In this document: piece after piece, positions 18,451-19,545 of the stretch
Position numbering within the stretch: the stretch's first letter is position 1
Layout: each line of letters begins with the position of its first letter
The notes under the pieces: generated by a model
Seen by the model: only the letters and a program-made list of their open reading frames with translations
Told to the model about the DNA's origin: nothing
Databases searched by the model: none
Source of the DNA: Elusimicrobiaceae bacterium
GTDB taxonomy: Bacteria; Elusimicrobiota; Elusimicrobia; Elusimicrobiales; Elusimicrobiaceae
Direction: 5' to 3'
DNA: 37,086 nucleotides
NCBI GenBank assembly: GCA_017417005.1
Contig: JAFQAA010000057.1
Span: 1-37,086 of the forward strand
Position numbers and translations under genes: made by a program

Positions 18451-18915
18451 ATGTTAATAATACTTATTATCTTATTTTTAATTGCCGGAGGACTTAGCAG
18501 TATTTTTGTTGGTTCGGCTGTTAAAGGGTGGTATGTTTTCTTAAAAAAGCCATTTTTTGCACCACCGGCTTTGGTTTTTGTACCTGTATGGACGATATTA
18601 TATATCCTGCTTGCTGTTTTTTATTGGCGGCTTGATAAAATTTATGACAAGAGCAACAATAAAAAGTTAATAGAAAAATTAAAAGGTATTTTTATTTTGC
18701 AAATGGTCCTAAATTTTATGTGGACGCCAGTTTTTTTCGGTTTAAGAAATATTGTTGGCGGATTAATTATTATTTTAGCGCTTGATTTGCTTGTTGTTTG
18801 GATAACTTGGCTTAGTTATAAAATTGATAAGAAATGTTTTTATATTTCTTTAATTTACCTTGTGTGGCTTTTATATGCAAGTGCATTAAACTTAGGTATT
18901 TTTATTTTGAATTAA
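18451..18915 (+). CDS. tspO: TspO/MBR family membrane protein
   Basis: A 154-residue protein with five membrane helices and the TspO pattern: W/KP-F segment (WYVFLKKPFFAPPALVFVPV), WTILYILLAVFYW, the LNFMWTPVFFGL motif, and a fifth helix WLLYASALNLGIFILN. TspO proteins bind tetrapyrroles and affect stress and envelope physiology; they are often called tryptophan-rich sensory proteins. The start has an AAGGAGG ribosome site. The 175-bp AT-rich gap upstream is shared with the divergent envelope operon. The last codons overlap a promoter for the RNA described next. Confidence 0.92.
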   Translation: MLIILIILFLIAGGLSSIFVGSAVKGWYVFLKKPFFAPPALVFVPVWTILYILLAVFYWRLDKIYDKSNNKKLIEKLKGIFILQMVLNFMWTPVFFGLRNIVGGLIIILALDLLVVWITWLSYKIDKKCFYISLIYLVWLLYASALNLGIFILN

Positions 18916-18934
18916 AATAAATTTTTGTTATACT
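18907..18934 (+). promoter_or_regulatory. Extended -10 promoter for the 19-kb RNA
   Basis: TTGAAT (18907-18912), 16-nt spacer, TATACT (18929-18934) preceded by TG and one base. It overlaps the tspO stop codon. Transcription would begin near 18941. Confidence 0.55.
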
Positions 18935-18940
18935 AAATAT

Positions 18941-19158
18941 AGTAAGTTATTTGCTTACACAAAAATTTAATCTGTTTTTGGAACCTTGTTTTTAGAGCAA
19001 GGTGACATTGCCGAAAAGGCAATTCAAAGAGAGTCCAAAAGCAGTCGTATTTTAAATATGCCAAAAGGTATATTTAATTCTGCCGCCTTTATGGCGGCAG
19101 ATACGGCTGTTGTATTTGAGGTACTCTCTTTGGCTCAAATATGACAGCCGTTTTTTTA
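18941..19158 (+). ncRNA. Structured RNA with alternative folds (riboswitch-like leader or sRNA)
   Basis: About 218 nt between tspO and the next gene, with at least six stems. Local hairpins: GTAAG/CTTAC (18942-18958), ACCTTG/CAAGGT (18983-19003), ATTGCC-GAAAA-GGCAAT (19007-19023), a TTAAATATGCC hairpin near 19052-19077, and CTGCCGCC/GGCGGCAG (19080-19099). Two long-range stems, CAAAGAGAGT (19025-19034) with ACTCTCTTTG (19123-19132), and CAGTCGTAT (19042-19050) with ATACGGCTG (19101-19109), enclose the last two. The second uses the left arm of the terminator, so the folds compete. It resembles no riboswitch class I know. It could be a leader for the gene at 19207 or an independent small RNA. 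Confidence 0.6.
19103..19157 (+). terminator. Long terminator hairpin of the structured RNA
   Basis: ACGGCTGT and TATTTGAG (19103-19120) pair with CTCAAATA and ACAGCCGT (19134-19151) through an 18-bp stem with two G-U pairs in the middle, followed by seven T. The 13-base loop contains the ACTCTCTTTG that is complementary to 19025-19034. Confidence 0.88.
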
Positions 19159-19206: not shown

Positions 19207-19545
19207 ATGCACGATTTAATCTATAAAATTATCAGCTATACCCAAGCTAAATATAGATGCACCTATAATAAATGGTATATCGGACTAACCGATAACCCAA
19301 AAGAAACAAGAAAAGAGTTTGAAAGTAAAAATAAAATTATTTGCACTTATTTTAAAACTTGGTCTTGTAAAAATAAAACCCAAGCAAGAAAAATATTAGA
19401 AGAATTTAAAGATTTTAATTTTATTATTTGTAAAAAAACACCAAAACCGCTTATTTTTATTTTTTTAAGTGTAGATAAGAAAAATTATAAAGCTTGGAAA
19501 GTCTTAAACGCCCCTATACCTAATACTTTCCTTACCTTAGATTAA
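19207..19545 (+). CDS. Small protein, faint GIY-YIG resemblance
   Basis: A 112-residue basic protein. The ATG at 19207 has AAGGA (19194-19198) before it; the frame is open further up but overlaps the terminator. The segment NKWYIGLTDNPKETRKEF resembles the YIG half of GIY-YIG nucleases, but the catalytic Arg/Glu pair cannot be confirmed and the protein is short. The rest is rich in K, F and I with a PLIFIFLSV strand. No signal peptide. It lies 49 nt downstream of the terminator of the structured RNA, so it may be controlled by read-through. I do not assign a function. Confidence 0.6.
   Translation: MHDLIYKIISYTQAKYRCTYNKWYIGLTDNPKETRKEFESKNKIICTYFKTWSCKNKTQARKILEEFKDFNFIICKKTPKPLIFIFLSVDKKNYKAWKVLNAPIPNTFLTLD

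Follow-up and report, generated by a model that had tools for sequence, protein, structure and literature searches.

The region between tspO and a small gene starting at position 19207 of a 37,086-nucleotide stretch from an Elusimicrobiaceae bacterium (the whole stretch analysed here, hereafter the window) raises the question of whether its RNA is a regulatory switch, and of what kind. The initial annotation had described a structured RNA at 18941-19158 with six or more stems and two mutually exclusive folds. Our analysis leads us to regard this RNA as very probably the 5' leader belonging to the gene at 19207. It would represent a new class of transcription attenuators that act in cis and have been highly amplified.

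The segment 18941-19170 folds at -94.1 kcal/mol, against -48.7 +/- 4.1 in 200 shuffled sequences (z = -11), and its predicted fold contains seven stems, namely a 5' hairpin, P1 to P5 and the terminator (P6), with P1 closing a three-way junction with P2 and P3, and P5 carrying a bulged U. All coordinates given in the initial annotation are correct: the terminator arm at 19101-19109 (ATACGGCTG) pairs exactly, with one G-U, with 19042-19050 (CAGTCGTAT), and the terminator loop at 19123-19132 (ACTCTCTTTG) is fully complementary to 19025-19034 (CAAAGAGAGT). The exclusivity of the two folds was supported as well, and both alternative pairings turned out to be co-linear, forming a single 25-bp antiterminator. 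The terminator, proposed to be 18 bp long, has about 18-19 bp followed by T7; a simple terminator scan did not report it, its loop and bulge probably falling outside the rules of that scan. The elements of the window copy are as follows.

18907..18934, + strand: predicted promoter, TTGAAT-16-TATACT with an extended -10 (TGTTATACT), overlapping the tspO stop codon; based on a pattern match and the pile-up of -10 boxes in 135 copies
18942..18958, + strand: 5' hairpin where the transcript is predicted to begin, found in many copies and outside the modelled core
18972..18982, + strand: P1 5' strand (CTGTTTTTGGA)
18983..19003, + strand: P2 hairpin
19007..19023, + strand: P3 hairpin
19025..19034, + strand: copy-specific strand (CAAAGAGAGT), pairing with the terminator loop at 19123-19132; distal part of the antiterminator
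19034..19044, + strand: P1 3' strand (TCCAAAAGCAG), common to P1 and the antiterminator
19045..19050, + strand: linker that lies outside P1 and lengthens the antiterminator; putative toehold
19052..19077, + strand: P4 hairpin, with an AAAA loop in the window copy rather than the palindrome usual in the family
19079..19100, + strand: P5 hairpin
19101..19157, + strand: intrinsic terminator, stem with loop at 19101-19150 and then the T tract, conserved across copies
19025..19132, + strand: antiterminator of 25 bp, formed between 19025-19050 and 19101-19132, with P4 and P5 enclosed
19207..19545, + strand: downstream gene, presumed to be controlled, 112 aa, of no known family, starting 50 nt past the terminator

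Directly 5' of P1 lies a single-stranded (A)CAATTTGAAT-like segment (18961-18971 in the window), which is strongly conserved in nearly all copies and has no assigned pairing partner.

The window holds one copy of this RNA, which is about 215 nt long across the class. From an alignment of 26 copies (A1) we derived a consensus structure and a covariance model, with which eight full copies were found in the same genome; a DNA search added further partial copies there and many more in relatives. The model detected the RNA in 80 of 90 Elusimicrobiaceae genomes, confined to two genera (g1 and g6). It is also carried by 14 genomes of a second family elsewhere in the phylum Elusimicrobiota (f15), and a third family (f2) contributed two weak members. 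Copy numbers, all of which are lower bounds, range from one per genome to at least 128 in a 1.7-Mb genome (G045), with at least 48 and at least 46 in two others (G034 and G014; E up to 1e-8). In a pattern scan of 84,980 species, the contig titles among the matches listed named Elusimicrobiota or lower ranks, including Candidatus Avelusimicrobium, apart from a few 'uncultured bacterium' contigs and one labelled Lachnospiraceae, which we take to be misbinned. A viral origin was considered and rejected: there was no match in IMG/VR, and phages gave a single 24-nt chance match. The window copy is itself a divergent member, scoring 111.7 bits, the lowest of the eight in its genome; given this divergence and a downstream gene without clear relatives, it may be partly decayed. 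In the distant members L296, L297 and L310, P1-P3 and the antiterminator are kept and P4 is apparently missing; these copies may have lost P4, or the other copies may have gained it later.

The proposal that the RNA belongs to no known class was upheld. Rfam yielded nothing at the gathering score for the window copy, with only chance matches at E up to 10 (T-box included), and no match up to E 0.01 for 16 loci with other copies; the T-box, GEMM, SAM, TPP and cobalamin covariance models did not match the RNA. Titles and abstracts retrieved from open-access PubMed Central papers gave no description of it. Like T-box leaders, the RNA offers a terminator/antiterminator choice, and its P1-P2 region contains UGGAACC, resembling part of the T-box sequence; in contrast to T-boxes, this motif lies inside P1/P2 rather than in an antiterminator bulge, and no specifier stem is seen.

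The fold is supported by sequence changes across the family, where copies are often only ~70% identical yet share the same structure. In A1, 96.1% of paired cells were complementary, compared with 80.3% after shuffling, and 333 double changes were counted against 94.6 in shuffled alignments, while sliding the partner strands left 39-46% paired, near chance. P1 and the lower terminator pairs hardly vary, and so contribute little covariation; P1 is invariant and the junction residues near-invariant, beside variable stems. Since A1 was picked for long copy-specific pairing and P4 palindromes, its figures for these two features are circular, and unbiased figures were taken from alignments A2 and A4. 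A2 comprises 112 distinct matches to a model that includes neither feature; it was gathered largely by a pattern for the P1 5' strand, so that the conservation of that strand is partly selected.

The antiterminator joins a copy-specific strand of 8-12 nt, the P1 3' strand and the linker, and pairs them with the whole 5' arm and loop of the terminator over 18-25 bp. In A2, the copy-specific strand formed at least 8 Watson-Crick base pairs with its own terminator loop in 109 of 112 distinct copies, as opposed to 0.47% of mismatched combinations (a control that removes the kinship of copies sharing descent only partly), even though this strand has 101 different sequences among the 112. An earlier set of 106 copies was also examined for this pairing. 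In the second and third families, at least 7 bp were found in 30/30 copies and in 11/870 mismatched combinations, and an antiterminator was predicted in 28 of the 30. More than 100 diverged copies preserve this pairing while its sequence changes, which exceeds chance, and, read from aligned sequences, the copy-specific pairing is a case of near-complete covariation, in line with the homologue comparison that the initial annotation had called for. A further correlated change links P1, where CAG becomes TAG, to the terminator arm, where CTG becomes CTA (Fisher p = 0.0009, a value that ignores descent); P1 itself does not require the G-to-A change in the arm. Cross-talk, or enforced orthogonality, among the copy-specific strands of a genome was looked for and gave no signal (1/1056 versus 2/3724 pairs).

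Predicted energies, which stand in for a folding process that is kinetic in the cell, describe a two-state device. In transcripts lacking the 3' arm of the terminator, 109 of 112 copies were predicted to form an antiterminator of at least 18 bp and no P1, and the antiterminator fold was favoured over the P1 fold by 13.0 kcal/mol on average. For full-length RNA the order is reversed: the best predicted fold has P1 and the terminator in 103/112, and this state beats the antiterminator by a mean of 10.8 kcal/mol over all copies (range 3.4-22.7). The competing duplexes are nearly equal, at -12.2 for P1 and -12.6 for the linker part of the antiterminator. Along the growing chain of the window copy, P1 is predicted up to 19111, the antiterminator from 19112 to 19146, and P1 with the terminator from 19147, just before the T tract begins at 19151; a T tract is present in 138 of 140 copies. 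A pure pseudoknot reading of the loop complementarity was superseded, as the co-linear antiterminator also accounts for the conserved TTTGGG and the linker; the terminator and the copy-specific pairing could coexist as a pseudoknot rather than compete.

The placement of the RNA supports a role as leader. A sequence match to the promoter that had been proposed to overlap the tspO stop codon was found, in an AT-rich window region where promoter-like matches are common by chance (12 found, 11.1 expected). Across 135 copies, the best -10 boxes peak 15-19 and 25-29 nt before P1 (28 and 26 copies; ~5.5 expected in each interval), and many copies have their own promoter. About 24 copies have an AAGGAG resembling a Shine-Dalgarno site 40-54 nt upstream of P1, followed in several of them by a minimal ATG-stop; this segment is possibly a leader peptide or a second transcript start. 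Downstream sequence was long enough to assess in 134 copies: the next gene is prepilin-like in 94, another ORF follows in 34 and no ORF was found in six; 128 have a same-strand ORF within 150 nt. Pilin starts lie a median of 38.5 nt beyond the T tract, and the spacing of ~30-50 nt between terminator and gene would leave no room for a separate promoter in most copies. A 384-kb portion of G045 contains 32 full copies, of which 27 precede a pilin recognised by a regular expression and one more a pilin recognised by eye, at leader-to-pilin distances of 28-47 nt; 27 of its 44 pilins carry the leader.

Most of the copies not at pilins precede envelope proteins. Among the non-pilin targets are outer-membrane barrels, lipoproteins of BamE-like and TRL-like type, a lipoprotein nuclease, a sulfatase, a polysaccharide pyruvyl transferase and HsdR_N-like proteins. 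Of the 20 N_methyl proteins in the genome of the window, a single one is preceded by the leader, so that pilins, although the chief target, do not define the class. Two genes of this genome for secreted nuclease (SNase) lipoproteins (L046:3958 on C31, and L049 on C95) begin at the first ATG, immediately behind the T tract, where a ribosome site could fit only within the terminator. At L132:2374-2576, L130:5330-5534 and L119:5902-6101, the downstream ORFs are pilin-like with an apparent in-frame insert within or before the GFTLIE signal (for example MNIKNTWRGFTQQEK...WGFTLIELLVVV). The protein encoded at 19207 matches no Pfam family and has only weak PHROG matches. Its sole clear relative (L048, G000:C14:1643-2230) has an internal stop and also lies behind a copy of the RNA, which indicates that leader and gene were duplicated together.

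With exclusive terminator and antiterminator, strong covariation, an own promoter and a gene start ~50 nt past the terminator, the attenuator logic suggested for this locus is supported across the family. The RNA shares with transcription-attenuation riboswitches and leader attenuators a 5' leader with a promoter of its own, the exclusive structures and a start codon just past the terminator. Unlike them, it has an antiterminator in which 8-12 nt are private to nearly every copy, contains no known aptamer and reaches extreme copy numbers per genome.

The structures, covariation, position, spacing and copy number were computed; read-through in vivo, kinetics, the direction of the switch and the existence and nature of a signal are what we infer in the following model. 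RNA polymerase would start ~30 nt before P1, and P1-P2-P3 would be the first to fold. The emerging 5' arm and loop of the terminator would then invade P1 through the unpaired linker, acting as a toehold, and extend their pairing over the P1 3' strand into the copy-specific strand next to it; the resulting 18-25-bp antiterminator would allow read-through. Once the 3' arm emerges, P1 plus terminator would become more stable and transcription would stop before the gene. This race would be decided by a factor acting in trans, most likely a binder of the invariant P1-P2-P3 domain that keeps P1 closed; with P1 held closed, the gene would be off. As the same device stands at prepilin-like and other envelope genes genome-wide, one signal could gate many surface proteins.

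What this factor might be can be weighed from the conservation of the RNA and from its targets. We tentatively entertain a metabolite or second-messenger riboswitch, in which a small molecule bound at the P1-P2-P3 junction or at P4-P5 sets the choice between terminator and antiterminator. The invariant P1 and near-invariant junction beside variable stems fit such a reading, with P1-P3 as a candidate aptamer only, as does the predicted two-state expression platform. With several copies per genome, c-di-GMP-I/cGAMP (GEMM) and c-di-GMP-II riboswitches are known upstream of genes for pilins and surface proteins, and the RNA described here, likewise multi-copy, forms one class before a largely envelope regulon; in contrast to the similarity in targets, it has no sequence or structure match to them in Rfam, either for the window copy (E up to 10) or at the 16 other loci (E up to 0.01). 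Against a ligand, few unpaired bases of the junction are conserved, no pocket that might bind one was identified, the RNA falls in no known class, and the targets are mostly structural proteins rather than enzymes that would name a metabolite. The idea of tetrapyrrole sensing, prompted by tspO, was not supported, since tspO is merely the upstream neighbour and the other copies examined precede unrelated genes.

The same invariant stem with its hairpins would also suit a protein, and an envelope and pilus regulon under one signal is compatible with an RNA-binding regulator or processive antitermination factor recognising P1-P3 or P4. EAR and PUT are processive antitermination RNAs that act on distant terminators, EAR being envelope-related; they resemble this RNA as elements at the transcript start that affect termination (here by prediction), but in our case the cognate terminator lies within every copy. 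An unsystematic look produced no candidate protein, and we consider this reading possible but somewhat unlikely.

Poised predicted energies and a private antiterminator strand in each copy are also what a built-in bistable terminator might display, one that needs no signal and lets each cell express a random few pilins as bet hedging. The prepilin-like genes are very greatly expanded in three genomes of 1.4-1.7 Mb, with at least 150 N_methyl matches in G045, at least 113 in G034 and at least 108 in G014, and the combination in G045 of at least 128 leaders with its prepilin-like repertoire would suit such a scheme. The strict conservation of P1-P3 and P4-P5 exceeds the needs of a leaky terminator, which makes a purely stochastic switch unlikely.

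Contacts between leaders come into view through the P4 loops, 66 of 112 of which contain 6-nt palindromes (10.9 in shuffled loops) and 98 of 112 4-nt palindromes (47 shuffled). The palindromes vary in sequence (TAATTA, TTATAA, TCATGA, TTCGAA; GACG loops also occur), and palindromic P4 loops are found in the second family too. Retroviral dimerisation hairpins are kissing palindromes, and the P4 loop, in this respect alone and judged by its letters, is alike, with 9 nt holding a 6-nt palindrome flanked by 2 and 1 nt. The pattern hints at possible loop-loop dimers through P4, with the window copy lacking the palindrome. More than 100 leaders of one class per genome, with private antiterminator strands and mostly kissing loops, might then amount to an RNA system that chooses the few pilins displayed, with leader-leader contacts contributing; this is a speculative and decidedly improbable extension. 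The narrower idea that dimerisation in trans through P4 helps to set the switch draws on the excess and turnover of the palindromes and on their occurrence in the second family, but the AAAA loop of the window copy, the apparent absence of P4 in the f2 relatives and copy-specific strands with no cross-complementarity beyond chance render it highly doubtful.

That the RNA is a free-standing small RNA, an alternative raised at the outset, or a mobile repeat merely beside genes is scarcely credible despite its own promoter, strong terminator and very many copies per genome, since a stand-alone small RNA would be placed independently of downstream genes while most copies lie a tight 30-50 nt from a same-strand start codon, copies often ~70% identical fold alike, and a terminator-antiterminator switch would be pointless, although terminated leaders would still be small RNAs.

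If the attenuator model is correct, the family provides more than 100 natural variants of one terminator/antiterminator switch for the study of co-transcriptional folding. It would constitute an undescribed class of cis-regulatory RNA and, with at least 128 copies in 1.7 Mb, to our knowledge one of the largest single-class RNA regulons in any genome, a ranking based on general riboswitch counts rather than a survey. For the Elusimicrobiota themselves, it would tie RNA attenuation to the expansion of prepilin-like genes in little-studied bacteria of the rumen, hindgut and termite gut.
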